Shown: positions 1 to 35,523 of the stretch, piece after piece
Position numbering within the stretch: the stretch's first letter is position 1
Layout: each line of letters starts with the position of its first letter
NCBI RefSeq assembly: GCF_014863355.1
Contig: NZ_JACZEP010000002.1
Span: 248,001 to 312,000 of the forward strand
DNA from: Aminobacter carboxidus
Lineage (GTDB): Bacteria; Pseudomonadota; Alphaproteobacteria; Rhizobiales; Rhizobiaceae
Reading direction: 5' to 3'
Length of the DNA: 64,000 nt
Program-made: the position numbers and the translations under genes
Notes under the pieces: model-generated
What the model saw: only the letters and a program-made list of their open reading frames with translations
The model's database searches: none
Told to the model about the DNA's origin: nothing

Positions 1-1832
1 GCGCCGAGTGCCGATTTCGGCGGCACTGCCTCATGCATGACGCTGATCACCGTCACGCCGGGGCAATTGTCCTTGATCACCTGGTGGAAAGCGATCTTGG
101 CCTCGAGATCGAGTGCCGCGGTCGCTTCGTCGAGGAACAGCAGACCGGGCTGCAAAAGCAGGATACGGGCGGCGACCAGCTTCTGCTTCTGGCCACCCGA
201 CAGAAGCTGGTCCCAGCTCTTGCCCTGGCGGGTTTCGTCGTCGAGATGCTCGATAAAGTCGCCAAGGCCGGCTTTGTGCATGGCGACCGCGACCTTCGCC
301 TCGGAATGGTTGCCGGGATGGTCGGGCAGGCAGACCAACTGCTTGAGTGAGACCTGCGGTAGCTTGACGTCCTGGGTGGCGTAGAACGACCTGATGCCTT
401 CGGGAAAGACAATGGCGCCACGGCCGTATGGCCACAGCCCGTTGATCGCCTTGACCAGCGAGGTCTTGCCGCATCCGGACTGGCCCGACACGAACGTCCA
501 TTCGCCACGGCGGAAGCGCAAATTGGCAACCGTCAGGAATGGGCTGGCCTCGCGGCCCTGATGCATCAATTCGAGATTGCGGACTGTCAGGCCGAACAGG
601 GCGTTCTGGCTGCCATAGCTGAATTCCGACTGGCCGGTGGCGGCATAGAATGCCGGCGGCTTCTGGACATTTTCGATTGCCTTGGCGAGATCGGTGACGC
701 GTTCGCTGTTGGCCCTGAGCGTGGCGATCGCCGGCATCACCTGGATGAACCACGAGCATTGGCTGATCAGAGAATTCACCAGTTCGGCGCCGGTGATGTA
801 GCCCTTCAGATTGATGTTGCCGTGCATGTAGGGAACGAGTCCCGGCCCGTAAGCGACGATGCGCGCGGCGATGAAGCCGTAGATCGATTCAAACGACATG
901 TAGCCGGCATTGACGACGTTGAGGCGCGACCAGGTCTTGTCGATGTCGAGATAGAGCCGGTCATGCATCGAGCGCTGCACGCTCTCGCCATGGGATGCCG
1001 CGACGTGGAAGCTGCGGCGCAGCAGCACCGTCAGTTCGCCGCGGTAGCTGCCTTCGGCCTGCTGCATGCGGATGCTGAGGCGCTCCATCACGCCGCCCAG
1101 TTTCATGGCGATGTAGGTATTGAGCGGCACATAGGCGGCAACGGCGGCAAAGGCCAGGATGACGCTGCCATAAGGGCCGAGGACTTCCAGCCCCGGCACC
1201 ACGGTCGAGGTTTCGAGCAGCTTCTGGCCGACGAAGAACAAAGATGTGGTGACGCCCATCACACCCATGGCGAGCCCGATGGCGCCGCCGGTCATGCCCT
1301 TGATCGAATCCTGGACGCGCTGGTCGATATTGTCGGGCGCCATCCCCGGACCGTCTCCGGAGCCGCCATGGTGCTGGACGTGGAAATGGGTGTGATTGGG
1401 GTCGAGCAAGGCGGCGCTGAAGCGATTGTTCAGCCAGCCGCGCCACTTGCGATGCAAGGTGGTGGAAAAGAGGTGCCGGATGCCGATGAAGCCTGCATCC
1501 TTGATCACGACCAGAACAAGCAAGGTACCAGCACTGGTCAGCAGCGACGCCAGCGGCGCCATGTTGGCCGGATCGTGGAAAAAGGCGATCGAATTGACCA
1601 GTTCGCCTGATGCTTCGGCCATCCACACGCTGGCCTTGCTGGAAAGTGCGGTAAGGAGGGCGATCACCAGCGTCAGCCCCCAGGCTTCCTTCCAGCGATC
1701 CGAGAGCCAGTAGGCCCGCATCAGGCCCCAGAAGCTACGCATCGCCGAAACCGGCGTCAGGGGAGGCGGCCTAGCGGCGCCGCGACGCCATCTGTTCAGC
1801 GATGGATATCGAGGTCTGTCGACCCGAATCAC
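1..1832 (-). CDS. YddA/SbmA-like ABC transporter, fused membrane and ATPase domains (3' end outside window)
   Basis: An ABC exporter-type half transporter with the membrane domain first and the nucleotide-binding domain second. The first ~370 residues contain several hydrophobic helices and resemble the ABC_membrane_2/SbmA-BacA type. The ATPase shows Walker A GQSGCGKTS near residue 450, signature LLSGGQKQKL, Walker B LLFLDEAT and an H-loop VMHE. A histidine-rich stretch (NHTHFHVQHHGG) lies after the first hydrophobic part. The frame stays open to base 1, so the last residues are missing. I chose GTG at 1832 because GGGG lies just upstream; the ATG at 1742 (MRSFWGLM) is an alternative with a poorer ribosome site. 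The family is linked to uptake or export of peptides, vitamins or lipids; the substrate here is unknown. Confidence 0.88.
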   Translation of the reverse strand, partial: MIRVDRPRYPSLNRWRRGAARPPPLTPVSAMRSFWGLMRAYWLSDRWKEAWGLTLVIALLTALSSKASVWMAEASGELVNSIAFFHDPANMAPLASLLTSAGTLLVLVVIKDAGFIGIRHLFSTTLHRKWRGWLNNRFSAALLDPNHTHFHVQHHGGSGDGPGMAPDNIDQRVQDSIKGMTGGAIGLAMGVMGVTTSLFFVGQKLLETSTVVPGLEVLGPYGSVILAFAAVAAYVPLNTYIAMKLGGVMERLSIRMQQAEGSYRGELTVLLRRSFHVAASHGESVQRSMHDRLYLDIDKTWSRLNVVNAGYMSFESIYGFIAARIVAYGPGLVPYMHGNINLKGYITGAELVNSLISQCSWFIQVMPAIATLRANSERVTDLAKAIENVQKPPAFYAATGQSEFSYGSQNALFGLTVRNLELMHQGREASPFLTVANLRFRRGEWTFVSGQSGCGKTSLVKAINGLWPYGRGAIVFPEGIRSFYATQDVKLPQVSLKQLVCLPDHPGNHSEAKVAVAMHKAGLGDFIEHLDDETRQGKSWDQLLSGGQKQKLVAARILLLQPGLLFLDEATAALDLEAKIAFHQVIKDNCPGVTVISVMHEAVPPKSALG

Positions 1833-1924
1833 AGTTTCTTACCCCATGCCCTTTGCCTATCGAAGGGTAACATGAGTTGAGCATTTCACAGTCAACATAT
1901 GGTTACCGGCTAATCAATGCGCCG

Positions 1925-1950
1925 CGAGCGTTGCGTGAGGGCAACGCTCG
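1925..1950. repeat. 10-bp perfect inverted repeat in a divergent promoter region
   Basis: Arms CGAGCGTTGC (1925-1934) and GCAACGCTCG (1941-1950) flank a 6-base loop. It lies in the 214-base gap between the ABC gene (leftward) and the DUF805 gene (rightward). No T-run follows on either strand, so a terminator is unlikely; an operator or leader hairpin is possible. Confidence 0.5.
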
Positions 1951-2046
1951 CCAGCCGGCTCCAATGCCCCGCTTAGGCGGCAACTGGAGCTTGCGGCGCA
2001 AGGGAAGTTGGAACACTGTCTGCCTCGCGATTCACGGGGACGACAG

Positions 2047-2784
2047 ATGCGCGGGGAAGTGCTCCACTACGACCAGACCCAGGGTTTTGGCTTCATTGCC
2101 GGGGCCGATGGCAACCGCTACACCTTCGCCCGCGAGGATCTGAGGGGCTCCACGGTTCCGGGCAAGGGCACTCAGATCGAGTTCCAGCCGAGCGGCAGTC
2201 AGGCGCGCGATGTGTTTGCGATCCACGCGCTGGTCGGCGTGCAGCAGGTGGCTGCGAAGCCCGCGCCGTCCGTGCCGCAATTCGGCCGCCGGGGCTCCGA
2301 CCAGCAAACGCCTTCCTTCAACGGGATGGCCGCGGAAGCGGGGCCGACCTCGACCGGGCTGTGGTCATATTTCTGGCGCGCCATCACCACGAACTATGCG
2401 AGCTTCCGGGCTCGCGCCCGGCGCAAGGAATATTGGGGCTATTATCTGTTCTGGGCGATCTCGGCTGTCGCGCTGGCGGCTGTCGGTTTCGGTATCGACG
2501 GCGCGCTTGGCAGGCTCGATGCCGGCATGGAGGAGCCGATCGCCGGCTTTGCGCTGCCCGGCCTGTTCTTGCTGGCAACGCTGTTGCCCAGCATCGCCGT
2601 CACCATCCGCCGCATTCACGATCTCGGCCTGTCGGGATGGTTCTATCTGTTGATCCTGCTGCCCTATGTCGGCGGCCTGATCATTTTCGTCTTCACCCTG
2701 ATCCCGTCGCAGAAGCACGAGAACAAGTGGGGGCCGGTACCGGTGGGGGTGAGGGTTCCTCCGCCTTACGTGCCTGCCGCTTAG
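2047..2784 (+). CDS. Cold-shock-like domain fused to DUF805 membrane domain
   Basis: The 245-residue protein has two parts. Residues 1-60 look like a cold-shock (OB-fold) domain: the nucleic-acid-binding motif appears as QGFGFI near residue 11, with RYTFAR nearby in place of the second motif. Residues ~110-235 match the DUF805 membrane family (RARRKEYWGYYLFW, then IRRIHDLGLSGWFYL, then a closing NKWGPVP), with about four membrane segments. A variable linker joins them. The start at 2047 is preferred over an upstream ATG at 2008 because GGGGACGACAG precedes it and the cold-shock fold begins there. DUF805 function is not established; an RNA- or DNA-responsive membrane protein is only a guess. 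Confidence 0.85.
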   Translation: MRGEVLHYDQTQGFGFIAGADGNRYTFAREDLRGSTVPGKGTQIEFQPSGSQARDVFAIHALVGVQQVAAKPAPSVPQFGRRGSDQQTPSFNGMAAEAGPTSTGLWSYFWRAITTNYASFRARARRKEYWGYYLFWAISAVALAAVGFGIDGALGRLDAGMEEPIAGFALPGLFLLATLLPSIAVTIRRIHDLGLSGWFYLLILLPYVGGLIIFVFTLIPSQKHENKWGPVPVGVRVPPPYVPAA

Positions 2785-2804
2785 AAATTCCACAAACACA
2801 AAAG

Positions 2805-2831
2805 AAAACGGCGCCGCTTGGGCGCCGTTTT
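2805..2831. terminator. Bidirectional rho-independent terminator
   Basis: An 11-bp stem, AAAACGGCGCC (2805-2815) against GGCGCCGTTTT (2821-2831), with a 5-base loop. It has T-runs on both strands and sits between the convergent DUF805 gene and leuB. Confidence 0.92.
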
Positions 2832-2849
2832 CGCTTCATCGACCTGCTA

Positions 2850-3953
2850 TCAGGCGAAGAACTTCGCGATGATCGCGTCGCCCATTGCGGTGGTGCCGAC
2901 TTCGGTCTTGCCTTCAGACATGATGTCCTTGGTGCGCAGGCCGTCGTCGAGCACTGCGGCAATCGCCGCTTCGAGGCGGTCGGCCTCGGCCACCATGTTG
3001 AACGAATAACGCAGGCACATGGCGAACGACGCGATCATGGCGATCGGATTGGCGATGCCTTGGCCTGCGATATCAGGCGCCGAACCATGCACGGGCTCGT
3101 AGAGCGCCTTGCGCTTGCCGGTCACGCCATCCGGCGCACCGAGCGAGGCCGAAGGCAGCATGCCGAGCGAGCCGGTCAGCATCGCGGCGACGTCCGACAG
3201 CATGTCGCCGAAAAGATTGTCGGTGACGATGACGTCGAACTGCTTGGGCCAGCGCACCAGCTGCATGCCGCCGGCGTCGGCGAGCATGTGGTCGAGCTTG
3301 ACGTCGGCGTATTTGGCCTTGTGGGTGGCGGTCACCACCTCGTTCCACAACACGCCCGACTTCATGACGTTGCGCTTTTCCATCGACGTCACGCGGTTCT
3401 GGCGCGTGCGCGCCAGCTCGAAGGCGACGCCCGAAATGCGTTCGATCTCGAAGGTGTCGTAGACCTGGGTGTCGATGCCGCGCTTCTGGCCGTTGCCGAG
3501 GTCGATGATCTGCTTGGGCTCGCCGAAATAGACGCCGCCGGTCAGTTCGCGCACGATCAGGATGTCGAGGCCTTCGACAACTTCCTGTCGCAGCGAGGAT
3601 GACGAGGCGAGCGCGGGGTAGCAGATCGCCGGACGCAGGTTGGCAAACAGCTCCATGTCCTTGCGCAGGCGCAACAGGCCGGCTTCGGGGCGCACTTCAT
3701 AAGGCACCGCATCCCACTTCGGGCCGCCGACGGCGCCGAACAGGACGGCGTCCGCCGCCATTGCCTTGGCCATGTCCGCATCGGAGATCGCCTGGCCGTG
3801 GGCGTCATAGGCCGAGCCGCCGACGCGGCCTTCCTCGGTGGCGAAGCCGGTGCCGAGTTTCTCGTTCATTGCGGTAATCAGCTTGCGGACCTCGGCCATG
3901 GCCTCGGGGCCGATGCCGTCGCCGGGCAGGAGAAGAAGATTGCGCGTCGCCAT
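2850..3953 (-). CDS. leuB: 3-isopropylmalate dehydrogenase
   Basis: Catalyses NAD-dependent oxidative decarboxylation of 3-isopropylmalate to 2-oxoisocaproate, the third step of leucine synthesis, in the cytosol. The 367-residue protein has the expected family length. It shows the N-terminal [10 protein letters not shown] motif (residues 9-18), the substrate-binding [15 protein letters not shown] region, and the late [19 protein letters not shown] dehydrogenase signature near residue 290. It is leftward and ends at the terminator at 2805-2831. leuD lies about 2.3 kb upstream on the same strand with three unrelated genes between, so the two are probably not one transcript. Confidence 0.97.
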
Positions 3954-4057
3954 GGAAAGCCTTTCCGAAAGATGCGTGAACCGCGGTCTTGCTAACCTCG
4001 GCGGGACGTCGGTGCAAGCGAGAAAGGCGCGGATTTCTTGAATTGTCGGGTGTGCGA

Positions 4058-4861
4058 CTACCCGATCTCCAGCAGCAGGGCGCGGTGGTCGGAGACCTCG
4101 GGCGCGGCCACGACCTCGAAGCGACGCACGCCTACATTATCGCTGACCAGCATGTAGTCGGCGAAGCGGGGCGTCTTGCTGTAGTACGAGGTGCGCGTGT
4201 CGATGAAGCCGCGCGTCGTCACCAGCTCGGTCAACCCGATGTCGCGCAGCGCCGCAAGCATCCTGCTTTCGGGCAACACGTTGAAATCGCCGCATACCAC
4301 CAGCCCGTCGTGCTGGTGCCGTACCCTGTCGATCAGTTCGATCAGCCTTGTGGTCTGGGTGTTGCGGGCGGGCGTGTCACCCTTGCCGTCGAGTTCGCGC
4401 AGGCCATGGAGATGGACGATCAATGTCGTCCGCCGCGTCGCATAGTCGTGCAGCCTGACGGCGTGGGCGTTGCGTGAGCGCGGGTGTTCACCAAAGCCAT
4501 CGGCCGAAAAGGCGCCGTGGATGAAGTCCTGAACCTGCCCGATGACAGGTAGGGAGCGCCTGACGAAAGTGGCCAGTCCCCACTCCGACTGAAACGCGCT
4601 GTCGCCGTGATGGAGCGGCCCTCGCGCGGCGGGACAGAAGAAGGCCTGATGGCCGGGCAGGACCCCGGCCACCTCGGCAAACAGGTTCGCCCGCTGTGGC
4701 AGCTCCGCGCCGCCGTCGCGATAGATCAACCATGGCGACGCCGCGTCGGGTGTGTTGGTCACCTCCTGCAGGCAGAACACATCGGGGTCGGCGCCCTTGA
4801 TGTAGGAAACCAGCTCCTCGCCGAGCCTGCCGCCCCAGCCATTCAGCGAAAGGATGCGCAA
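4058..4861 (-). CDS. Endonuclease/exonuclease/phosphatase-fold protein
   Basis: A 267-residue single-domain member of the EEP superfamily (Mg-dependent phosphodiesterases acting on DNA, RNA, lipids or phosphoinositides). Visible conserved points are LSLNGWGG at the N-terminus, the metal-binding glutamate in CLQEV (~residue 33), the [14 protein letters not shown] loop and the C-terminal catalytic SDHRALLLE. There is no signal peptide. It starts 14 bases after the end of the RidA gene and is probably its operon partner. The substrate cannot be read from sequence. Confidence 0.85.
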
Positions 4862-4875
4862 ACGGTCCCCCTATG

Positions 4876-5256
4876 TCACGCGCGCTTCAGCGCGGTGACC
4901 TCGATCTCGATCTTCATCTCGGGCTTGTTGAGCTGGCAGACGATCATCGTCGCCGCCGGGCGGATGTCGCCGAAGGTCTCGCCGAGGATCGGGAACACCA
5001 GATCCACATAGGCCTGGTCGGTGATGTAGTAGTGCGCGCGCACCACGTCGGCCATTTCGAAGCCGCCGTCGGCAAGCGCCTTGGCGATGGTCGCCAGGCA
5101 ATTGCGGGTCTGCGCCTCGACGCTCTCGGGCATGGTCATGGTGGCGTAGTCGTAGCCGGTTGTGCCTGAGACGAAGCACCAGTCGCCCTGCACCACGGCG
5201 CGCGAGTAGCCGGCGGTCTTTTCGAAGGGCGAACCTGTAGAAATCAGCTTGCGCAT
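4876..5256 (-). CDS. RidA family protein (enamine/imine deaminase type)
   Basis: A 126-residue YjgF/YER057c/UK114 protein. The family hydrolyses reactive enamines and imines from PLP enzymes or acts in ring-cleavage pathways, usually as a trimer. Family features seen: WCFVSGTTGYD, RNCLATIAKALADGG, VVRAHYYITD, and the C-terminal KIEIEVTALKRA. The start at 5256 is fixed by GAGGAAATCCGAC immediately upstream; an in-frame longer reading to 5322 would overlap the preceding gene. It lies 11 bases after the secreted-protein gene and 14 before the EEP gene, so the three look co-transcribed. The arginine of the RidA active site is not confidently located, so deaminase activity is not assured. Confidence 0.87.
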   Translation of the reverse strand: MRKLISTGSPFEKTAGYSRAVVQGDWCFVSGTTGYDYATMTMPESVEAQTRNCLATIAKALADGGFEMADVVRAHYYITDQAYVDLVFPILGETFGDIRPAATMIVCQLNKPEMKIEIEVTALKRA

Positions 5257-5267
5257 GTCGGATTTCC

Positions 5268-6101
5268 TCACTGTTGCGGCGCGAACGCCTTGGTCATCGC
5301 GTCCTTCACCTCCACCGGCCACTCGGCCAGCGCCGGCCAGGTCCGGGGTTCAGACGTTTCGCCCTGCCTGGCAAAGTAGAGCTTCTTGCCCTTGGCATCG
5401 ATGCCAATGAAGGAATCGTTGATGCCGCAGGCATGGGGTACGCAGCCCGTAGCGACGACAATTCCTGAAGCGGTCTTCTCCGGCCCGCCCGATACCGAAA
5501 GGCCGAGCGCAACGGCCTCCATCTGGTCGCCCAGCATGGCGCTTGCCGCTTCGTAGAGCTCGGCGTTGTCAAAGAAGTCGACGGGGTAGACGACCGTTTG
5601 AGCCTTGAGGTCGGCCCATGTCGTACCGGGTTGCGGCGTGAAAGCCAGTTCACCAGCCACGGTCAGACCGTCGTCCAGCGACCATTTGCGGACCGGGGAC
5701 TTGGTGCCGGGAAGCAGGTAGGGCACGAAGTAGAGCGTGTCGCTGGTTGCGGCGGCGGGCGGTGTACCGCATTCACCGTCGCCGACCACCGTAGACTGGA
5801 TGCCGGCGTCAGTTTTCCACGCCAACACCGTCGCCGGGCCGCATGCATTGCCACCGTCGCCGAGGGCAAAGATCGCCACCTTGGTGTTGCTCACCTCGAC
5901 CGTGCGGTCGTGGAAGGCGACATAGTTCCTGGCAATCTCCTTGCCCTCGTAGGCGACGACCTTCTCGCCTTCGGCGTTCTCGACGATGGTGAAGTTGCCG
6001 CCCTCGAACGGGATCGTCTGCGGCTTGCTGTCCTGCGCCAGCGCCGAAGTCGAGATGGTCAACGCCAGCGCGAATGTAGCGAGGAGGGCGTGCGATTTCA
6101 T
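5268..6101 (-). CDS. Secreted protein of unknown function
   Basis: A 277-residue protein I do not recognise by name. It has a clear signal peptide (MKSHALLATFALALTISTSALA, cleavage near residue 22) and a mature part rich in beta-type segments. Four cysteines occur as CG at ~101, CGTP at ~127 and a C-x4-C pair (ATGCVPHACG) near residue 235. The C-terminus has IGIDAKGKKLYFARQ followed by ALAEWPVEVKDA. The ATG at 6101 has CAGGAG nine bases upstream; the longer reading to 6185 lacks one. It leads the small RidA/EEP operon. A periplasmic location is inferred from the signal peptide only. Confidence 0.75.
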   Translation of the reverse strand: MKSHALLATFALALTISTSALAQDSKPQTIPFEGGNFTIVENAEGEKVVAYEGKEIARNYVAFHDRTVEVSNTKVAIFALGDGGNACGPATVLAWKTDAGIQSTVVGDGECGTPPAAATSDTLYFVPYLLPGTKSPVRKWSLDDGLTVAGELAFTPQPGTTWADLKAQTVVYPVDFFDNAELYEAASAMLGDQMEAVALGLSVSGGPEKTASGIVVATGCVPHACGINDSFIGIDAKGKKLYFARQGETSEPRTWPALAEWPVEVKDAMTKAFAPQQ

Positions 6102-6230
6102 GGTCTGCTCCTGGAGATCGGCCTGCGATGTCGCGGAGCGGCTGGCCCTGGCCTGCGCGCGCTCCGAATCCCGAGGCGCGACCATGCCATGGCACAGCTG
6201 GCCTGTCAGCCGGAGCCGATTGTTCCAGCA

Positions 6231-6266
6231 AAAAGCCCCGCCGCGAACGTGTCGGGCGGGGCTTTT
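6231..6266. terminator. Rho-independent terminator after leuD
   Basis: Stem AAAAGCCCCGCC (6231-6242) against GGCGGGGCTTTT (6255-6266), 12-base loop, T-runs on both strands. It lies downstream of leuD, separating it from the secreted-protein operon. Confidence 0.9.
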
Positions 6267-6294
6267 CAGAATGTCGACTGGCCGAATATCGAGA

Positions 6295-6900
6295 TCAGGC
6301 CCAGGGGCGGTTCTCGGCAGCCTTCTTCTCGTAGCTGTCGATCGACTTCGCCTTCTCCATGGTCAGGCCGATGTCGTCGAGGCCGTTGAGCAGGCAATGG
6401 CGGCGGAAATCGTCGAGGTCGAAGGCGACAACACCGCCGTCGGGGCCGCGGATTTCCTTGGCTTCGAGATCGACCGAAACGGTGGCGTTGGCGCCGCGCG
6501 AAGCGTCGTCCATCAGCTTGTCGAGGTCTTCCTGGCTGACGGTGATCGGCAGGATGCCGTTCTTGAAGCAGTTGTTGTAGAAAATGTCGGCGAACGACGT
6601 CGAGATGACGCAGCGGATGCCGAAGTCGAGCAGCGCCCACGGCGCATGCTCACGCGACGAACCGCAGCCGAAATTGTCACCGGCAACGAGGATCTGCGCC
6701 TTGCGATAGGCCGGCTTGTTGAGCACGAATTCGGGGTTTTCCGAACCATCCTCATGGTAGCGCATTTCGGCGAAAAGCCCGGTGCCAAGGCCAGTGCGCT
6801 TGATCGTCTTGAGATAATCCTTGGGGATGATCATGTCGGTGTCGACATTGACGATCGGCAGGGGGGCAGCGACGCCCGTGAGCTTGGTGAATTTTTCCAT
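6295..6900 (-). CDS. leuD: 3-isopropylmalate dehydratase small subunit
   Basis: Small (swivel-domain) subunit of isopropylmalate isomerase, converting 2- to 3-isopropylmalate with the iron-sulfur large subunit LeuC, which is not in this window. The 201-residue length is typical. It starts [15 protein letters not shown] and shows [19 protein letters not shown] and the substrate-loop [17 protein letters not shown], all diagnostic. The ATG at 6900 is chosen because the family begins there; an in-frame extension to 6954 is not conserved. It is followed by the terminator at 6231-6266. Confidence 0.97.
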
Positions 6901-6996
6901 GGCTTTTGCCCGTCTGGCTGTTGCGGGGATTTTGGCTTGCCCCGCTTTACACAAGCTTGGCCGGGAATCAAAGCGTTTCGACGCTGGGGAAGCCGG

Positions 6997-7911
6997 CTAC
7001 TTCGCCGACGTCACGCCATAGACGCGGGCGATGTCGTCGAGCAGCAGGTTGGCAGCGATCGCGCCGCCCGCCGTATTCCACACCGCATCGTCCACGGCGA
7101 CGGCCTTGCCGGCCTTCACCACCGGCAGGCTCTGCCACAGCGGTTCGGACAGCCATTCTTCCGACTGCTTGCTCGCCTTGCCGTTGCCGGTCTCGTAGAC
7201 GAAGTAGAACAGGTGATCGCCGTCGAATTCGGGGATACGTTCTTTGGTGACGTCGTCGGCGAAGCCTGGCTTGTCCTGGATGGCGGGGCGCTGGATGCCG
7301 ATCTGGCTGAAGATCATGCCGGGGAAGGTATCCTTGTAGTAGATGCGGGTCAGGCCCGGCATGAAGCGGATCAACGACACCTTCTCGGCCTTCCTGTCGC
7401 CGAGCGTCTCGCCAAGCTTGGTCGCCTTGTCGTCGAACGCCTTGAGTCGTGCCTCGCCTTCGGCCTTCTTGCCGAGCGCATCGGCATAGAGCGCGAAGTT
7501 CACCTTCCAGTCGCCGCGCAGGCGTTCCGACATGACCGTCGGGGCGATCGCCGAGAGCTGGTCGTAGATCTTTTCCTGGCGCGTCTTGTTGCCGAGGATC
7601 AGGTCCGGCTGCAGGCCGGCGATCAGCTCGAGATTGACTGCCGATTCTTCGCCGACAACCTCGACGCCGTCCATCTTGTCGGCGATGTGTTTGTACCAGG
7701 GCGAGCCGGTCCAGGAGCGCACGGCGCCGACAGGCTTGAAGCCCAGCGACAGCATGGCTTCGGTGCCTTCATTGGTCAGCACCACGATGCGCTGCGGATT
7801 TTCGGGCACGTCGGTCACGCCCATGGCGTGTTTCACTTCGTGGGCGAAGGCTGAACTGGCGGCAAAGGCGGCCATTGCGAGGCCGAGTGCGGCTTTGGCG
7901 AAGAGCTTCAT
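6997..7911 (-). CDS. Iron-siderophore ABC transporter substrate-binding protein
   Basis: Periplasmic ligand-binding protein (304 residues) of the FecB/FhuD class. It has a signal peptide ending near AFA (residue 23), then the fold start PENPQRIVVLTNEGTEAMLSLG, with IAGLQPDLILGNK in the first lobe and the FDGDHLFYF segment in the second. GGAG lies 8 bases before the ATG at 7911 but only 2 before the ATG at 7917, which decides the start. It diverges from the permease/ATPase genes at 8001-10880 across an 89-base gap that contains a candidate iron box. The ligand class (ferric siderophore versus haem or cobalamin) cannot be settled. Confidence 0.9.
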   Translation of the reverse strand: MKLFAKAALGLAMAAFAASSAFAHEVKHAMGVTDVPENPQRIVVLTNEGTEAMLSLGFKPVGAVRSWTGSPWYKHIADKMDGVEVVGEESAVNLELIAGLQPDLILGNKTRQEKIYDQLSAIAPTVMSERLRGDWKVNFALYADALGKKAEGEARLKAFDDKATKLGETLGDRKAEKVSLIRFMPGLTRIYYKDTFPGMIFSQIGIQRPAIQDKPGFADDVTKERIPEFDGDHLFYFVYETGNGKASKQSEEWLSEPLWQSLPVVKAGKAVAVDDAVWNTAGGAIAANLLLDDIARVYGVTSAK

Positions 7912-7970
7912 GTTCATGGCTCCAAACTTGACGGGGACAAGAAGGTTTGGCAAAGGGTCAGAACAAACCC

Positions 7971-7985
7971 TGACTGTCAAGATCA
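7971..7985. promoter_or_regulatory. Candidate RirA iron-responsive (IRO) box
   Basis: TGA (7971-7973), nine bases, TCA (7983-7985) matches the TGA-N9-TCA core reported for RirA-regulated iron genes in Rhizobiales. It lies in the divergent promoter region of the iron importer. A short consensus, so the match is suggestive only. Confidence 0.45.
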
Positions 7986-8000
7986 TATTAAGGCTGCCGC

Positions 8001-9023
8001 GTGCCCCTCGCTTCGTCGAACACGAGCATCCGAGTGCATCAGCGCATCGGTCGGCGCGCGCTGTTCTCAGGGCTGGCGGTGCTGTTGCTCATCCTGATGT
8101 ATCTCAGCCTGGCGATTGGCTATCGCCTCTATTCGCCCGGCGAGATCTGGCGGGCGGTGACCGCCTTCGACGGCAGCGAAGCGCATGTCGTGATCCGTGA
8201 CCTCCGTCTGCCGCGGGCGCTGATGGCGCCGCTCGTTGGCGCAGCACTCGGCATAGCTGGCGTGCTGGTCCAGACGCTCGCGCGCAACCGCATCGCCTCG
8301 CCCGACACGCTCGGCCTCAATGCCGGTGCTGCCTTCGCCGTGGTCATGGCGAGCGGGCTGTTCGGTGTTGCATCCTTGCCCGGGCTGTCGGTGGCGGCGG
8401 CTGCGGGTGCGCTGGCCACCAGCATGCTCGTCTTTGGCCTCGCTGCCGCTGCCGGCGGCATCTCGCCGCTCAGGATCGTGCTTGTCGGTGTCACCTTCGC
8501 TGGCCTGTTCGACAGCTTCGTCAATGTCGTGCTGACGGTCAACGAGACGATGCTCGACCAGTTGCTGTTCTGGCTCGCCGGTTCCTTCGCCGACCGCAAG
8601 CTCAACCTGGCGCTCAATGGCCTGCCCTTCGTGCTGGTCGGCAGCGGCATCGCCTTCTACCTCGCCCGCTCGCTCGACATCCTGCAGACCGACGATGCCA
8701 CGGCGCGCGGGCTCGGCGTGCCGCTTGGCGTCGTGCGTGGGCTGAGCTTCGTTTCGGTGGCACTGCTCAGCGGCGCTTCGGTGGCGATGGCCGGGCCGGT
8801 GCTGTTTGTCGGCCTCGTCGTGCCGCATGCGGCGCGCGCCCTTGTCGGCCTCGAACATCGATTGCAGATCGTCGCCGCAGCCCTTGTCGGTGCCGTCTAC
8901 ACGACGCTGGCCGACATCCTCGCCCGCTTTGTCATCTTCCCACGCGAAGCGCCGGTCGGCGCCGTCACGGCGATCGTCGGCGGCTGCCTGCTTCTCGTCC
9001 TGCTCAGGAGGCGCGCGGCATGA
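8001..9023 (+). CDS. Iron-siderophore ABC transporter permease, first subunit
   Basis: A 340-residue FecCD/BtuC-type permease of the inner membrane. Expected features are the PRALMAPLVGAALGIAGVLVQ region after the first helix, RNRIASPDTLGLNAGAAFAV (the ASPDxLG family motif), about nine to ten hydrophobic helices, and the cytoplasmic coupling loop ATARGLGVPLGVVRGLSF ahead of the late GLVVPHAAR motif. It starts with GTG at 8001. Its last bases overlap the next gene in an ATGA arrangement, so translation is coupled. It should pair with the 9020-10072 subunit as a heterodimer. Confidence 0.93.
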   Translation: MPLASSNTSIRVHQRIGRRALFSGLAVLLLILMYLSLAIGYRLYSPGEIWRAVTAFDGSEAHVVIRDLRLPRALMAPLVGAALGIAGVLVQTLARNRIASPDTLGLNAGAAFAVVMASGLFGVASLPGLSVAAAAGALATSMLVFGLAAAAGGISPLRIVLVGVTFAGLFDSFVNVVLTVNETMLDQLLFWLAGSFADRKLNLALNGLPFVLVGSGIAFYLARSLDILQTDDATARGLGVPLGVVRGLSFVSVALLSGASVAMAGPVLFVGLVVPHAARALVGLEHRLQIVAAALVGAVYTTLADILARFVIFPREAPVGAVTAIVGGCLLLVLLRRRAA

Positions 9024-10072
9024 GTTTTCTGACTCCACGCCTGTCGCCGGCCTTGGCCCGTATCAACCGCCGCGCCTGGGTTGCCGTCGGCATCATCGCG
9101 ACTGTCGCCGTGGTGCTTGCGCTGTGCGGGGTCGGTTTCGGCTCGACCTGGATCGAGCCGCGACGCGTCGTCGAAATCCTGATGGGCGAGGGTGCACGCG
9201 GCGAGCGCGTCGTGGTGCTGCAGTTGCGGGCGCCGCGGGTTGCCATCGCTGCCCTTGCCGGCGGCGCCATGGCCGTTGCCGGCTACCTTTTGCAGAAGGT
9301 GACTCGCAATGAACTGGCCTCGCCCGGTGTGCTCGGCGTCATCGGCGGCGCCGGCCTGGGCGTCGTCATCTTCCTGGCGCTGCTGTCCGACGAGAGCAAT
9401 TCGCTCGTCACCTCCATCGTCTGGCAGCCGATGGCGGCGATGATCGGCGCAAGCCTGGCCATCGCGGCGGTGTTCCTGCTTTCGGGCCAACAGGCCTCGT
9501 CGGCGGTTCGGCTTTTGCTGTTCGGCATCGCCGTGGGCGCGGTCTGCAAGGCGGCGACCCTGATCCTGATGATCGTCGGCCCGATCTACCGCACCACCCA
9601 GGCCAGCCGCTGGCTTGCCGGTGCGGTCAACGAGATCAACTGGGGCGAGGTCCAGGTCGTCGCCATCGGCCTCGCCATCGCCATGGTCGGCGTCGTCGCG
9701 GTGGCGCGTCGCCTGCCGCCGACCGATCTCGACGAGGTCTCGGCGCGTGGCCTCGGCCTCAACCTGCCGGTGTTCCGCATCTTGGTGTTTGCACTCGCCT
9801 CGGCGCTGACGGCACTTGCCGTCGCCTTCGCCGGCGGTGTCGGTTTCATCGGCCTGATGGCGCCGCATCTGGCGCGGCTGATCGTCGGCCGCCCGGTGCT
9901 CGCCGGCATCGCCGCCAGCTTCCTTTTGGGCGCCATCATGCTGATCGGCGCCGATCTCATCGTGCGCGTGCTTTTTGCGCCGACCGAAGTGCCTGCCGGC
10001 ACCGTCACTGCGGTCATCGGCACGCCCTATTTCCTCTACCTCGTGCTGCGCAGAGGGAGCACCAATGGATAA
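9020..10072 (+). CDS. Iron-siderophore ABC transporter permease, second subunit
   Basis: A 350-residue FecCD-family permease. It carries RAPRVAIAALAGGAMAVAGYLLQ, NELASPGVLGVIGGAG, the coupling loop VSARGLGLNLPVFR and GFIGLMAPHLARLIVG. Start ATG overlaps the preceding stop by four bases, and its end overlaps the ATPase gene by eight bases, giving a tightly coupled three-gene unit. Two distinct permeases, rather than one duplicated subunit, match the FecCD and FhuB-like heteromeric arrangement. Confidence 0.93.
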   Translation: MSFLTPRLSPALARINRRAWVAVGIIATVAVVLALCGVGFGSTWIEPRRVVEILMGEGARGERVVVLQLRAPRVAIAALAGGAMAVAGYLLQKVTRNELASPGVLGVIGGAGLGVVIFLALLSDESNSLVTSIVWQPMAAMIGASLAIAAVFLLSGQQASSAVRLLLFGIAVGAVCKAATLILMIVGPIYRTTQASRWLAGAVNEINWGEVQVVAIGLAIAMVGVVAVARRLPPTDLDEVSARGLGLNLPVFRILVFALASALTALAVAFAGGVGFIGLMAPHLARLIVGRPVLAGIAASFLLGAIMLIGADLIVRVLFAPTEVPAGTVTAVIGTPYFLYLVLRRGSTNG

Positions 10073-10880
10073 AGCCATCAGCGTCAAGGCACTGACCATC
10101 GCCTATGGCGCGGCGACCGCGATCAGTGCCGTCGATCTCGACATCGCCAAGGGCAAGGTCACGGTGCTTGCCGGTCCCAATGGTTGCGGCAAGTCGACTT
10201 TGCTGCGCGCCATACGCCGACTGCACCAGCCGAAATCGGGTGAAATCCGGCTCGGCGACATGCCGATCTCGGGTCTCAAGGAAAAGGAGCTGGCACGCCA
10301 CATCGGCCTTTTGGCGCAGAGCCCGTCGGCGCCCGACGACATGAGCGTCGAGGAGTTGGTCCGGCTCGGCCGCTATCCGCACCAGACCATGCTGCAGCCA
10401 TGGAGTGCTGCCGACGCCGACGCCATCCAGGCGGCGATGTTCGGCACCGGCGTTTCCCATCTGAGCGAGCGCAGGCTCGGCTCGCTGTCGGGCGGCCAGT
10501 TGCAGCGCGTCTGGATCGCCATGGTGCTGGCGCAAGAGACCGACATCATCTGCCTCGACGAGCCGGTCAACCATCTCGACATGGCCCACCAGATCGACTG
10601 CCTCGACCTCGTCACCCGACTCAATCGCGAGCATGGCCGCACCGTGGTGCTGGTGCTGCACGACCTCAACCTCGCGGCGCGTTATGCCGACCGGCTGGTG
10701 TTCATGAAGGACGGCAGCATGGTAGCCGATGGCGCCCCTGTCGAGCTGATGCGGGAAGAGCTGATCGAGGACGTCTTCGGCATCAGCTGTCGGGTCATCG
10801 AGGATCCGGTGCACCAGCGGCCGCTGTGCATTCCGATCCGCAATTCGTCGCCGCGCTTCGGAGCGGCTCCGCAAAGCTGA
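10065..10880 (+). CDS. Iron-siderophore ABC transporter ATPase
   Basis: A 271-residue FecE-type nucleotide-binding protein. Walker A is GPNGCGKSTLL (~residue 36), the signature LSGGQLQRVWIAMVLAQ, Walker B DIICLDEPVNHLDMAHQ and the H-loop VLVLHDLNLAARYADRL, the last two wording typical of siderophore importers. It begins inside the last codons of the preceding permease (ATGGATAA overlap). This completes the importer: binding protein (leftward), two permeases and the ATPase. Confidence 0.94.
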   Translation: MDKAISVKALTIAYGAATAISAVDLDIAKGKVTVLAGPNGCGKSTLLRAIRRLHQPKSGEIRLGDMPISGLKEKELARHIGLLAQSPSAPDDMSVEELVRLGRYPHQTMLQPWSAADADAIQAAMFGTGVSHLSERRLGSLSGGQLQRVWIAMVLAQETDIICLDEPVNHLDMAHQIDCLDLVTRLNREHGRTVVLVLHDLNLAARYADRLVFMKDGSMVADGAPVELMREELIEDVFGISCRVIEDPVHQRPLCIPIRNSSPRFGAAPQS

Positions 10881-29827: not shown

Positions 29828-29855
29828 GAGGCGCCCGGTCCGCCGGGCGCCTCTT
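29828..29855 (+). terminator. Strong hairpin terminator after the hydrolase gene
   Basis: An 11-bp perfect stem, GAGGCGCCCGG (29828-29838) and CCGGGCGCCTC (29843-29853), with a TCCG loop and a short TT tail. It starts ten bases after the stop codon. The T-run is weak. Confidence 0.7.
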
Positions 29856-29967
29856 GGGCCAGAGCGTGCCGATCGCGCGGACAGCGGCCGTAGCAGGCGC
29901 GAAACCCGTTCACGGCACCCGTCGCGGCGGCTATAGCAGTGCATCGCCGATGCATTGGAGCCCGCCC

Positions 29968-31221
<1,254 letters not shown>

Positions 31222-31392
31222 GGGAGCATATCGATCGCTGGTCCCACAGAGCTCTTTAACTCGACGGCTATTGCCTCCACATTGGGCTTCGAAATTGTGT
31301 AGGCGGTTCCAATGATGTTACGGGGTTCTGGCGCAAAACCATTTCCCGGTGCCGACAGCGCCCACGATGAACGCAACTTTCTTGTTAAGCAT
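31222..31392 (-). pseudogene. Short gene remnant with intact ribosome site
   Basis: On the leftward strand AGGAG (31402-31398) precedes ATG at 31392 by five bases. This gives MLNKKVAFIVGAVGTGK and a stop after 24 codons. In the next frame, GFAPEPRNIIGTAYTISKP and NVEAIAVELKSSVG continue toward the pepT end, which looks like the same gene after a frameshift, cut off at the junction. The VAFIVGA opening hints at a nucleotide-binding fold, but I cannot name the family. Confidence 0.4.
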
Positions 31393-31487
31393 TAATTCTC
31401 CTAGTGCACTTCATAATCTTGTTTAGGTCTTCGCTCGTCGCATTCCTATGGGGCGAGCGAATAATATCTCTCACCGGAAGCTAATTT

Positions 31488-33090
31488 TTGAGTAAGTGTA
31501 TGTCAGGCACGAATATTCAGAAGGCGTTGCTTACCAAGGGCTATTTTCCGCGGGAGCTGCCGCCCACGTTCACTACCGCAGATTTTGGGCTTCACTCTCC
31601 AGACATTCTCAATGAATGGGAGAGTCGCAAGGTTTTTTCCAAGAAAGCAATGGGAAAGACCCCTTGCAAGAAAAAGAGAAGCAACGCGTATTCATATTCG
31701 CTGAAGAGCGCCGAGGCCGAAGTCATATCAAAACCCAAACGGGGGTATGAGAGGCGAAATATCCACCTCACGCACCCGGTTGCGCAAGCGCTAATTGCTG
31801 CCGAATTGTCAAATAATTGGAGGCCGGTTCAGAAATGGCTTTCACGCCAGGAGTTTTCTGAAGACGATATTCGTGTATCAGAAAAATATGAGCGTTCTAT
31901 CAAAGGCATAAATTTTGCTATGCATAGAGCCAAAAAATCATAGCTCGAAGCCACATCAGATTGGTTGGTAAAAACTGATATTTCGCGGTTTTATCCTTCG
32001 ATTTATACTCATTCGATCCCTTGGGCAGCCTATGGCAAGGAGCGTGTCAAGCAACGCATGGGGTACTACGATGGTTCTTTTGCCGACCGCCTCGATGTCT
32101 TGGTTCGTTCTTGCAATCGCAATCAGACAATTGGGATACCAATTGGCCCAGAGACATCGCGAATTATTGCCGAGATTATTTCGGCTCGAATCGATGCCGA
32201 TTTCAAAGGCCATTACAGCAGCCTCCTGCCCGGCTCAGTGGATCGCTTACAAGATGATTGGGCAGTTGGGGTGGGGACCCTGGAGGCAGCTGAAAAAGTT
32301 CTATCAACTATTAGCGGTCTCTACCGTTCGTATGGGCTTGATATTAATGGCAGTAAGACGTCGATTCAACACATAGTTGCTACTCAGCAAGCTGTTTGGA
32401 TATCGGAGATTGGCGCATTCCTTTCTCATCGGCCGGGTGCCTTGAGAGGGGCAAGGCTTCGAGAATTCCTCAACATGTGCCTGCGGCTTCAGGCCGACTA
32501 CGGTTCGGAACCAGTAATAAACTATGCTTTATCTGTGATAGAGAATTCACAGATAGGTAGGGCCGATGTTGAAGCCATGGAGTCGTTCCTCCTGAAGGCG
32601 TCTATTGTCGCCCCGAATTCCATGGATCGCATTTGTCGAATTATCTTGAACTTACAGCACCATACGAAGAGCGTATCTGCAAAGCGGATTGGTGAGCGTT
32701 TCGTGCATCTTGCGGAGAGAAATCTCGAAAAAGGCCAGTGCTATCGCGCTCATTCTTCTGGACATGAAGGCTAAGGGGATGGGACTCGGGACGCTTCCAA
32801 AAGATAATTGGGAAACACGAATATCTGAAGAGAGCGTGCTTTCTGATTGGACATGGCTACTGGCCTATGAAGGGTTTCGTCATGGTTGGCTTTCCGACAA
32901 GAAAGGCCTGATGGCGAAGCCATTCTTCAAGCCAATGGTTGATCGAAAAGTCATCTTCTATGATCATGCAAGAAATATCCAGACTTCGCGTAGTTTTGTG
33001 CAAAAACAACGACAGGTCAGAAAGCGCGATAACGTGGAAATAAAGCTTCTATTCGAGGCGATGCGAGGAATTGACATTACTGAATATTAA
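31488..33090 (+). pseudogene. Abi/DRT-like reverse transcriptase, interrupted by an amber codon and a frameshift
   Basis: Three pieces together give one ~534-residue RNA-directed DNA polymerase. Piece 1 (31488-31940) has the family start KGYFPRELPPTFTT. An in-frame TAG (31941-31943) is followed without frame change by the polymerase core: motif A TDISRFYPSIYTHSIPWA, motif B GIPIGPETSRIIAEI and motif C DRLQDDWAVG, where Leu replaces the usual Tyr before the catalytic Asp pair. Near 32728-32732 a run of five A shifts the frame; with four A the chain reads NLEKASAIALILLDMKAKG and runs to 33090. TTG 31488 (GGAAG upstream) or ATG 31500 may be the start. The region is AT-rich against GC-rich flanks, suggesting transfer. 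No group II intron maturase domain is seen. Confidence 0.85.
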
Positions 33091-33624
33091 CAATTTATCT
33101 CCAAGGTCGCTGTTGCATAAAATACGGTCTTGGTTTTCCCCAACTCCTTGTTCCCGCTTCCCTTAAAAAAACTTTCACCCGATTTATCCACGCCCCAAAA
33201 GCCAAGCTTAAGATCAGCCCATCTCCGTCAAGGGAAACCTGGTGCGCACCGGGTTATCAGGTGAGGGGGCTTGGCCGGCGGCGCTAACGTTGGCGTTGCT
33301 GGGGTGAGGAATGGTCCGCAAAGCGGACGAAAAGCCAATGGTTTGGCTTTTCGAATGACGAACGCCCGGAGCCATAGCGGAGGGCAAATCCCTTCAGGTC
33401 AAGGCCCCGCCAGCCGACGCGAAAATGCGTTGAACGGCATGAGGGCGGGGCAAGAGCACTGGCGGCGGCGTGCCGCATTCAGAATACAGAAGAAGGCGCC
33501 CCCATGCGTCAGCTTCCCAGGCAAACCCGGCTGGCCGCGGTGTGCCGGGAACGCAAACCATGCGCTCGTCCGAACGAAAGGTTTTCGCCATGAAACAGCC
33601 AAGGCGAATGGACGGGGCATGCTT

Positions 33625-33898
33625 GCACCGAAATGGGCTTCACGACTGTCGCGGCATGGATCCCCGGGATCTCCGCACTCGCTGCGCTCGTGCTCCGACC
33701 CGAGGATGACGGATGCCTTGGTGCCCTCACAAGCCCTCATTCCGAGTCTCTTCGCCCTCGTGGTGCTCTCGACAATCGCCAACGTTCGCGTTTGGCGGCA
33801 ACGCCCCTTCCTCGTCATCCTCGTGCCCGAAGCGGCGAAGCCGCGCAGGGTTACGGGGATCCATGCCATGACGGTCGCGAAGCGCATTTCGGTGCAGG
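33625..33898. repeat. Long imperfect inverted repeat, two ~90-bp arms
   Basis: The left arm (33625-33714; from GCACCGAAATGGGCTTCACG through GGATCCCCGGG to GAGGATGACGG) is repeated in reverse as the right arm (33811-33898; CGTCATCCTCGTGCCCGAAG through GGGGATCCATGCC to CATTTCGGTGCAGG), at roughly three quarters identity by eye. The ~95 bases between are unrelated. Such elements are dispersed intergenic repeats in Mesorhizobium-like genomes. Confidence 0.7.
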
Positions 33899-33971
33899 AC
33901 GTTAGGGGTGGCAACGCGGGTCCCGGTCAAAGGGCGGGATGGAAAATACCCCCGCCTCGCTGCGCGCGGCA

Positions 33972-33997
33972 CCTCTCCCCACTGCGTGGGGGCGAGG
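33972..33997. repeat. Palindromic element, CCTCTCCCC type
   Basis: CCTCTCCCCACTGCGTGGGG followed by GCGAGG forms a hairpin with one mismatch and is a variant of the element at 34085-34111. Confidence 0.65.
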
Positions 33998-34084
33998 GAT
34001 CGCCAAGCGTGTGGGCGGAATCTCGGCGCTGGTTGCACAGGGCGGAGGCCGCGCGAACAGATGCGGCTTCACAGAATCTCGGTT

Positions 34085-34111
34085 CCTCTCCCCCACAAAG
34101 TGGGGGAGAGG
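34085..34111. repeat. Perfect palindrome, CCTCTCCCCCA type
   Basis: CCTCTCCCCCAC (34085-34096), loop AAA, GTGGGGGAGAGG (34100-34111): 12-bp arms. A third intergenic hairpin of the same design within 250 bases. Confidence 0.75.
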
Positions 34112-34162
34112 TGGCCGCGAAGCGACCGGAGAGGGGGTGAGTGGACAGGCGGTGGCACCGAT

Positions 34163-34192
34163 ATCCTCCCTCCCCCTTGTGGGGAGGGATAG
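34163..34192. repeat. Palindromic repeat, second copy of the 21738 element
   Basis: CCTCCCTCCCCCTTGTGGGG then AGGGATA, nearly identical to 21738-21764. Confidence 0.7.
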
Positions 34193-34224
34193 AGGGTGGG
34201 GTGCAAGGCGTATTGCGCCCATTT

Positions 34225-34244
34225 TTCGACAAGCTCAGGATGAG
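34225..34244. repeat. REP-like element, inverted copy of the 25657 repeat
   Basis: TTCGACAAGCTCAGGATGAG is the reverse complement of CTCATCCTGAGCTTGTCGAA, which differs at three positions from 25661-25680. It lies just after the stop of the leftward oxidoreductase gene. Confidence 0.65.
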
Positions 34245-34257
34245 GCAGGGCCAAACC

Positions 34258-35427
34258 CTAGATCACGTTCAGTTCGCGAAATGCCCGCCCCTCGGCGACG
34301 CGCTGGTAGCCGAAGGCCGAGCAGTCGATGGTGCGGTAGCCGCCATGGACCAGAAGCTCGGCCAGCGCCTTGCCCACTGCCGGGGCCTGCTGCAGGCCGT
34401 GGCCGGAAAAGCCGTTGGCGAAGACGAAGTTTGTAACCTCCGGATGCGGGCCGATGACGGCATTCTGGTCGAGCGCGTTGTAGTCGTAATGCCCGACCCA
34501 GGCCTGTGTCGCCTTGATCGCCTCGAAGGCCGGCACGCGGGTTGCCAGCACCGGCCAGATCACCTCTTCGAACAGCCCCCAGTCGGGGTTGAAATCTTTG
34601 ATGTCGGCGGCCAACTCGCCGTCCTCGTTCTCGGCCCCACCTGTGATGTAGACCGAACCCTCGGGCCGGACATAGACGCCGCTCGGGTCAACCATCAGCG
34701 GCATGTCGGCGAATTTGTCCCGCGCTTCGAAGACAAAGACGTTGCGCTTGCGTGGCTCGACCGGCAGCGCGATGCCGGCCATGGCGGAGACCTTGCCGGC
34801 GTTCGGCCCGGCAGCGTTGAACAGCGTGCCGGCCTCCAGACGCTCGCCGCTGGCGAGGGTGACGGCAACAATGCGGTTGCCCTGACGTTCGATGCCGGTG
34901 ACCTCTGATGTGATCAGGTCGATGTTTTTGGTCTTCAGCGCCTTGCGAAACAGGCCGAGCATGGCATGCGCATCGAACCAGCCTTCGCCCGTCAGCCCAT
35001 AGGCGCCGGCGGAGATGCCCTCGGTCGAGATCCAGGAAAAGCGCTTTTGCAGCTGTTCGGCATTCTCGAGCACGATGTCGGCGCCCTCGGCCAATTGTGC
35101 TGCGTGGTTGGCCCTGAGGATCGGCAGGCCGTTGTCGCCGGCGAGGATCAGGTAGCCGCCCTCGCGGAAACCGATGTCGGCGTCGGACCCGAACTCGTCC
35201 TTCAGCCGCCGGAACAAGCCGAGCGTGAACTGCGACAGGCGGATGTTTTCGGGGATCGAGAATTGCTGGCGGATCGAGGCGCAGGACAATGTGGTCGCGG
35301 CATGGGCGAATTGCGGGTCGCGCTCGATCAGCGCGATCGAGCCGGTAAAACCCTCCTCGCGCAGATAATAGGCGATCGAGCTGCCGACGATCGCGCCGCC
35401 TGTGATGACCACGTCGTAGCGTGCCAT
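34258..35427 (-). CDS. FAD-dependent oxidoreductase, DAO (D-amino-acid/sarcosine oxidase-like) family
   Basis: A 389-residue flavoenzyme. The N-terminal dinucleotide fold reads YDVVITGGAIVGSSIAYYLREEG and ALIERDPQFAHAATTLSCASIRQQFS, a start typical of sarcosine-oxidase and FOXRED1-like proteins. The LFNAAGPNAGKVSAMAG segment and the C-terminal NFVFANGFSGHGLQQAPAVGKALAELL close the FAD site. It has no signal peptide. ATG at 35427 (MARYD) is preferred to the longer reading to 35514. It is divergent from the CoA-ester lyase gene. Likely oxidises an amino acid or N-methyl amine; the substrate is unknown. Confidence 0.92.
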   Translation of the reverse strand: MARYDVVITGGAIVGSSIAYYLREEGFTGSIALIERDPQFAHAATTLSCASIRQQFSIPENIRLSQFTLGLFRRLKDEFGSDADIGFREGGYLILAGDNGLPILRANHAAQLAEGADIVLENAEQLQKRFSWISTEGISAGAYGLTGEGWFDAHAMLGLFRKALKTKNIDLITSEVTGIERQGNRIVAVTLASGERLEAGTLFNAAGPNAGKVSAMAGIALPVEPRKRNVFVFEARDKFADMPLMVDPSGVYVRPEGSVYITGGAENEDGELAADIKDFNPDWGLFEEVIWPVLATRVPAFEAIKATQAWVGHYDYNALDQNAVIGPHPEVTNFVFANGFSGHGLQQAPAVGKALAELLVHGGYRTIDCSAFGYQRVAEGRAFRELNVI

Positions 35428-35523
35428 GGAGTGTTCCCGTCTGCTGTGATGGAGGACAAAAGCAGTTACGCCACCGCCGGGCAAGCCCTTGCAAGGACCA
35501 GCATTGCCGGGCAAGAAGTCCAG

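Follow-up and report, generated by a model that had tools for sequence, protein, structure and literature searches.

According to passages in two reviews, DRT4 is a template-free maker of random single-stranded DNA (ssDNA) (PMC13213688, PMC13314766), and one of these also describes the enzyme as tyrosine-primed (PMC13314766). DRT6 appears in passages of the same reviews as a relative of DRT4, single-gene or known at low resolution, that is activated by phage ORF55 and whose product is less resolved (PMC13213688, PMC13314766). AbiK and Abi-P2 are presented, in part of a further paper, as hexameric protein-primed polymerases, with Tyr44 as the priming residue of AbiK (PMC9508834). For DRT3b, sections of a preprint attribute priming to Tyr666 in the C-terminal tail and state that the class 1 enzymes studied so far use no nucleic acid template (PMC13174585, preprint).

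Here we describe an interrupted reverse transcriptase (RT) gene in a window of 64,000 nucleotides from Aminobacter carboxidus (positions 248001-312000 of one contig; genome of 6.29 Mb, 31 contigs, 100% complete). Among the described systems, its likeness to DRT6 (UG12; PADLOC profile PDLC03748; PDB 9wy8) is the closest: Drt6 is the top profile for every piece of the gene, a relative (L032) is modeled with an RT domain followed by an α-solenoid and has 9wy8 as its nearest fold, and the locus seems to consist of a single gene without known RNA. It departs from DRT6 in that the gene in the window is interrupted.

Family assignment of the RT gene

The RT-like coding sequence spans positions 31500-33090 on the forward strand. 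Its sequence and that of its relatives place motif A at the catalytic Asp codon 31977-31979, motif B at 32133-32177 and motif C (LQDD) at 32247-32258, as expected from the original prediction of an RT with these three motifs. Alignment with relatives makes ATG 31500, rather than TTG 31488, the likely start codon. From this ATG, the Drt6 profile and the relatives' alignment delimit an N-terminal piece of 147 aa (31500..31940), which is followed by an in-frame TAG (31941..31943) and by the RT palm piece that carries the three motifs (31944..32735; alignments A1 and A2, the latter of 23 sequences with L032 first). Beyond the joint of a 98-nt deletion (32735..32736), the C-terminal solenoid piece (32737..33090) lies in another frame and ends with a Tyr codon (33085-33087) and TAA.

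The PADLOC search returned Drt6 (profile length 511 positions) as the top family for 31488-31940 (E = 9.9e-26, profile positions 3-116), for 31944-32771 (E = 2.1e-84, 282 bits, positions 121-373) and for 32689-33087 (E = 3.1e-20, positions 402-499), with Drt4 as the runner-up. Drt6 was also the top profile in all six relatives tested (2e-140 to 5.4e-150). The original prediction, which had favored an Abi/DRT-type defense RT over a retron or group II intron enzyme and had proposed a profile search with the joined protein as a check, is borne out: the palm piece scores 282 bits against Drt6 compared with 21.5 bits against retron St85 and 23.3 bits against group II intron RTs, and we rejected the latter two classes. 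DRT2, DRT3 and DRT4 were likewise set aside on the profile scores. Among the NCBIfam models listed, which include none for Drt6, no family exceeded its cut-off (the Drt4 model reached 154 of the 450 bits needed), and Pfam RVT_1 scored 23.9 bits on the RT, under its 29.6-bit cut-off. The catalytic Asp of motif A and the Asp pair of motif C (32253-32258) are kept in the window, and the corresponding columns of alignment A2 (D162, D254 and D255) are invariant. Judged by these profiles, the gene, which is present in single copy in its genome, is a member of DRT6 (UG12) by descent, and a broken member rather than a working DRT6.

Relatives and the clade-specific motif C

A genome-contig scan based on an alignment of two sequences produced 47 candidate stretches, of which 14 were relatives; the same scan with a single protein gave 17 candidate stretches and no relatives. 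The close clade has 58-74% identity to the window and comprises L030 (Rhizobium JAB6), L031 (Pseudooceanicola), L032 (an alphaproteobacterial MAG), L033 (a Filomicrobium MAG), L034 (Rhizobium G21), L035 (a Comamonadaceae MAG) and L036 (a Rhizorhabdus MAG). L034 and L011 are overlapping ranges of the same contig (genome G359). More broadly, the Drt6 profile matched 15 of 394 genomes in the family at E ≤ 1e-20, where the weaker matches may be other families, and 11 of 397 genomes in the order at E ≤ 1e-60; both counts include the genome studied here. Neither scan matched any of the 14 control genomes. Viral contigs yielded 16 loci with 28-37% identity, and plasmid and phage protein searches yielded 196 and 5 records, respectively, all below 60% identity. 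An uninterrupted but distant Drt6-type gene with a 541-aa open frame (L007) was seen in a genome of the same genus (G001), on a contig other than that of its pepT.

Motif C reads LQDDW in all eight clade members (the window, L030-L033, L035 and L036 in A2, and also L011). The remaining 16 sequences of Drt6 type in A2 have NIDD, HVDD, LVDD, LMDD or YxDD instead. Thus, the clade differs from other DRT6 in having Gln directly before the Asp pair, where those 16 have Val, Ile or Met preceded by Tyr, Asn, His or Leu. The original prediction had singled out the Leu near the Asp pair as unusual. This Leu is common to the whole clade and recurs in other Drt6-type sequences (LVDD, LMDD), and from the alignment it is the Gln that is a clade trait, the Leu being nothing special. 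We also rejected motif C as a site of damage, since LQDDW is common to the whole clade.

Two lesions in the gene

The amber codon at 31941 was correctly predicted: the TAG is in frame, and the corresponding codon specifies Tyr or Phe in six relatives (L030-L033, L035 and L036). Five of these six are uninterrupted, and L030 is split further downstream. The second lesion, originally taken to be a shift in an A-run, is of a different kind. DNA alignment with the same six relatives revealed that 98 nt are absent from the window directly after GAAAAAGG, at 32735/32736, a gap present in none of the six. The reading frame switches near 32730, and as 98 nt do not make a whole number of codons, the C-terminal piece falls in another frame. 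The deleted stretch corresponds to approximately residues 415-447 of L032, and in the L032 model these residues hold two solenoid helices (416-428 and 436-443). Consistent with the deletion, the Drt6 profile match of the second piece stops at position 373 and that of the third begins at 402. The run of five A at 32728-32732 is one among seven A-runs of at least five in the gene and is a bystander, not a lesion. The gene is therefore not nearly intact, as it had been called, with about 33 residues lost at the joint, and the continuous frame expected of a working DRT6 is absent from the window.

Outside the two lesions, the coding sequence shows little decay, in line with the original suggestion that the loss is recent. 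Over 479 columns with all seven sequences present, we counted lone departures from six agreeing sequences. The window had 5/180, L030 0/175, L031 1/176 and L032 0/175, where the low counts of L031 and L032 say little because the two share 89% identity; L033, L036 and L035 had 10/185, 14/189 and 38/213, respectively. The 5 departures of the window against 0 of L030 lean slightly toward decay. In a relative-rate comparison with at least four of five outgroups agreeing (471 columns), the window and L030 each had 11 unique changes, although L030 is a weaker yardstick because it is itself interrupted. Counts with single outgroups (window versus L030) were 28 versus 41, 27 versus 42, 32 versus 27, 28 versus 24 and 26 versus 26. 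Where L031 and L032 agree, the window had 39/14/59 unique changes at the three codon positions, compared with 39/26/58 for L030. Taken together, the counts do not point clearly to relaxed constraint on the window copy, and the loss is recent relative to the split from L030. A long decay was rejected, given the little damage beyond the lesions in the alignment, relative-rate and codon-position counts. The few amino-acid changes would also fit a gene under ongoing selection.

Interruptions in related genes

The gene of L030, the closest relative, is also split. Its C-terminal part was located by tblastn 4.1 kb farther downstream, at 10171-10353 (56% identity), and the insert between (about 6092-10170) carries three transposase genes, two of the IS110 type and one with an integrase core. 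In Rhizobium G21 (L011 1175-2884), the frame is disrupted by three small indels of 1, 1 and 2 nt, possibly through assembly error in a genome of 5 contigs that is 86% complete. Therefore, three of the eight clade members are interrupted, in three ways (TAG and deletion, IS cluster, and short indels). A Drt6-type gene outside the clade (L029, genome G705, minus strand) has a TAG in its C-terminal part, elsewhere than the TAG of the window. Across the family and order scans, interrupted genes occur in 3 of the 19 genomes matched at E ≤ 1e-60 (the genome studied here, counted once, G359 and G705).

Predicted fold and C-terminal tail of the family

To examine the fold, we used the AlphaFold model of L032, predicted with A2 (mean pLDDT 88.7, pTM 0.88); the model is of this relative (65% identity to the window) and not of the window copy. 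Foldseek against the PDB placed 9wy8, a hexameric DRT6, first (E = 2.3e-26; TM score 0.80 by query and 0.91 by target), followed by UG15/DRT4, AbiK and Abi-P2, with AbiA, DRT9, group II and DGR enzymes far behind among the best 50 matches. The sequence profile of A2 likewise matched 9wy8 first (3.9e-141), then UG15/DRT4, 26cz (a SUMO-fused RNA-directed DNA polymerase), AbiK, Abi-P2 and Drt3b. The L032 model has the RT domain with a C-terminal α-solenoid as in 9wy8.

DRT4/UG15 (PDB 9vdo, 9l9s and 21ou), the template-free ssDNA maker of the two reviews, thus comes second by profile and by fold, but its profile scores the palm piece about 79 bits lower than Drt6 (203 versus 282). AbiK and Abi-P2 have the same overall build as this gene, but reach only 107 and 88 bits, respectively, on the palm piece. 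Drt3b/UG8 shares a Tyr in the C-terminal tail, the residue to which the preprint sections assign DNA priming in DRT3b. Drt3b (109 bits) has Drt3a and a noncoding RNA as partners. Neither was seen: Rfam gave no match in 30900-34400, and the 1.9-kb insert is too small for a second RT gene.

A Tyr is found among the last four residues in 14 of 22 Drt6-type sequences, and an aromatic residue in 18 of 22, a count that includes L030, which is cut off by its insert. The corresponding numbers in other long stop-to-stop frames, many of which are not genes, were 13/267 and 55/267. This position sets the Drt6-type sequences apart from AbiK with its priming Tyr44. The C-terminal Tyr may therefore prime DNA in DRT6, and we regard it as a candidate priming residue. 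The window retains the Tyr codon at 33085-33087, out of frame. In A2, an acidic C-terminal tail with a final aromatic residue is common among Drt6-type proteins. With blastn, nothing common to the window and the six relatives was detected in the 300 nt upstream. From this result and the negative Rfam search of 30900-34400, we disfavor a system that depends on a noncoding RNA.

Insertion site and sister species

The broken gene lies in a low-GC insert (31225..33133) with 47.5% G+C compared with 64% for the window, in agreement with the predicted AT-rich island next to pepT. On the left, the insert is flanked by a pepT-like peptidase gene (29854..31221, plus strand), so named in the original prediction, whose start codon is uncertain and whose 3' part matches all 10 genus genomes, the own genome included. 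On the right lies a gene on the minus strand (34258..35514) that we take, from its sequence style, to encode an FAD-dependent oxidoreductase-like protein; four sister species have 90-92% DNA identity from 34255-34258 on.

For comparison, we took eight of the nine sister genomes (G007 was left out). Both flanks were found in G002, G003, G004 and G008, and in G001, G005, G006 and G009 the pepT side alone matched in the stretch taken. Homology to the four sisters with both flanks breaks on the pepT side at 31224-31227 and resumes at 34255-34258. The match to G008 resumes at 33134, and we set the right boundary near 33133 because parts of 33134-33614 match G008, one sister species only. The stretch 31180-33400 has a few short repeats, none of them at the insert ends, and the insert DNA had no match among plasmids. 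A 50-aa frame between pepT and the RT start (31227-31376, minus strand), suspected to be an enzyme remnant, had no Pfam match.

The original prediction had recommended comparing the locus in sister strains, and in the four sisters where both flanks were found, other cargo proved to lie between them. An autotransporter gene occupies the interval in G002 (by Pfam) and in G004, the two intervals being 81% alike over 3.1 kb. The interval of G003 holds PAS-GGDEF-EAL and MEDS-LuxR genes (Pfam). In G008, the interval encodes proteins with matches to LmuB (1.6e-106) and LmuA (2.8e-25) of Lamassu, with the LmuB- and LmuA-like genes at 1475-3655 and 3980-4897 of the stretch taken (L081), both on the minus strand. 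The pepT-oxidoreductase interval is a variable one in which cargo differs among sister species and includes two unrelated defense systems.

Probable loss of the gene and alternative explanations

Our results indicate, with high probability, that a single-gene DRT6 came in with the low-GC insert and was then inactivated by the TAG and the 98-nt deletion, leaving a recent pseudogene. In the proposed course of events, the DRT6 (UG12) gene would have arrived between pepT and the oxidoreductase-like gene. The in-frame TAG would halt translation ahead of the palm domain, and the deletion would strip two α-solenoid helices and put the rest, C-terminal Tyr included, out of frame. In relatives, the working form would most likely be DRT4/AbiK-like, a hexameric, protein-primed, template-free DNA polymerase, and its ssDNA product would halt the infected cell. 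Phage defense by the intact form, and this mode of defense, are suggested by analogy with these enzymes; the window copy is presumably without function.

Alternatively, as the original prediction had allowed, the protein may still be made by suppression of the TAG and a frameshift at the run of five A, and both frames are indeed otherwise well preserved. However, with about 33 codons gone, suppression and frameshifting cannot give the normal protein: even a perfect frameshift product would be a chain about 33 residues short, not a full family chain. A-run slippage and programmed frameshifting were accordingly rejected, since the 98 nt are physically missing. The A-run is also short, the gene has six more of at least five A, and the neighboring pepT frame stops with TAG (31219-31221). 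We consider recoding extremely improbable. An assembly or sequencing error, with the gene whole in the living strain, would sit well with two lesions in an otherwise well-preserved coding sequence, and an artefact could account for the TAG. A clean 98-nt deletion in single-copy DNA is, however, an atypical sequencing error, and the TAG would need a second, independent mistake, so that this explanation is improbable. A shortened frame from TTG 31965 to 32774 (269 aa) is open and keeps motifs A to C with the catalytic Asps, and could have been retained as a smaller protein that took on another function. Such a protein would be missing most of the solenoid as well as the N-terminal piece and would end in out-of-frame residues, and none of the six aligned relatives has this shape; we give this reading very little credence. 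Inactivation of a DRT6 gene by the two lesions remains our preferred explanation, and on the sequence evidence this is an ordinary loss of a defense gene of a known family, not a new decoding trick.

It is conceivable, if rather doubtful, that DRT6 of the LQDDW clade is costly and repeatedly lost, and that the interval may swap defense systems between sister species (Lamassu in G008, DRT6 here). The analysis removes a false lead on recoding of a defense polymerase and illustrates that a seeming one-base shift can mask a 98-nt deletion visible only through relatives. It adds what appears to be a small, clean example of a defense gene lost recently, together with a DRT6 clade that has a motif C residue of its own and an interval of the chromosome that carries different cargo in different sister species, two unrelated defense systems included.
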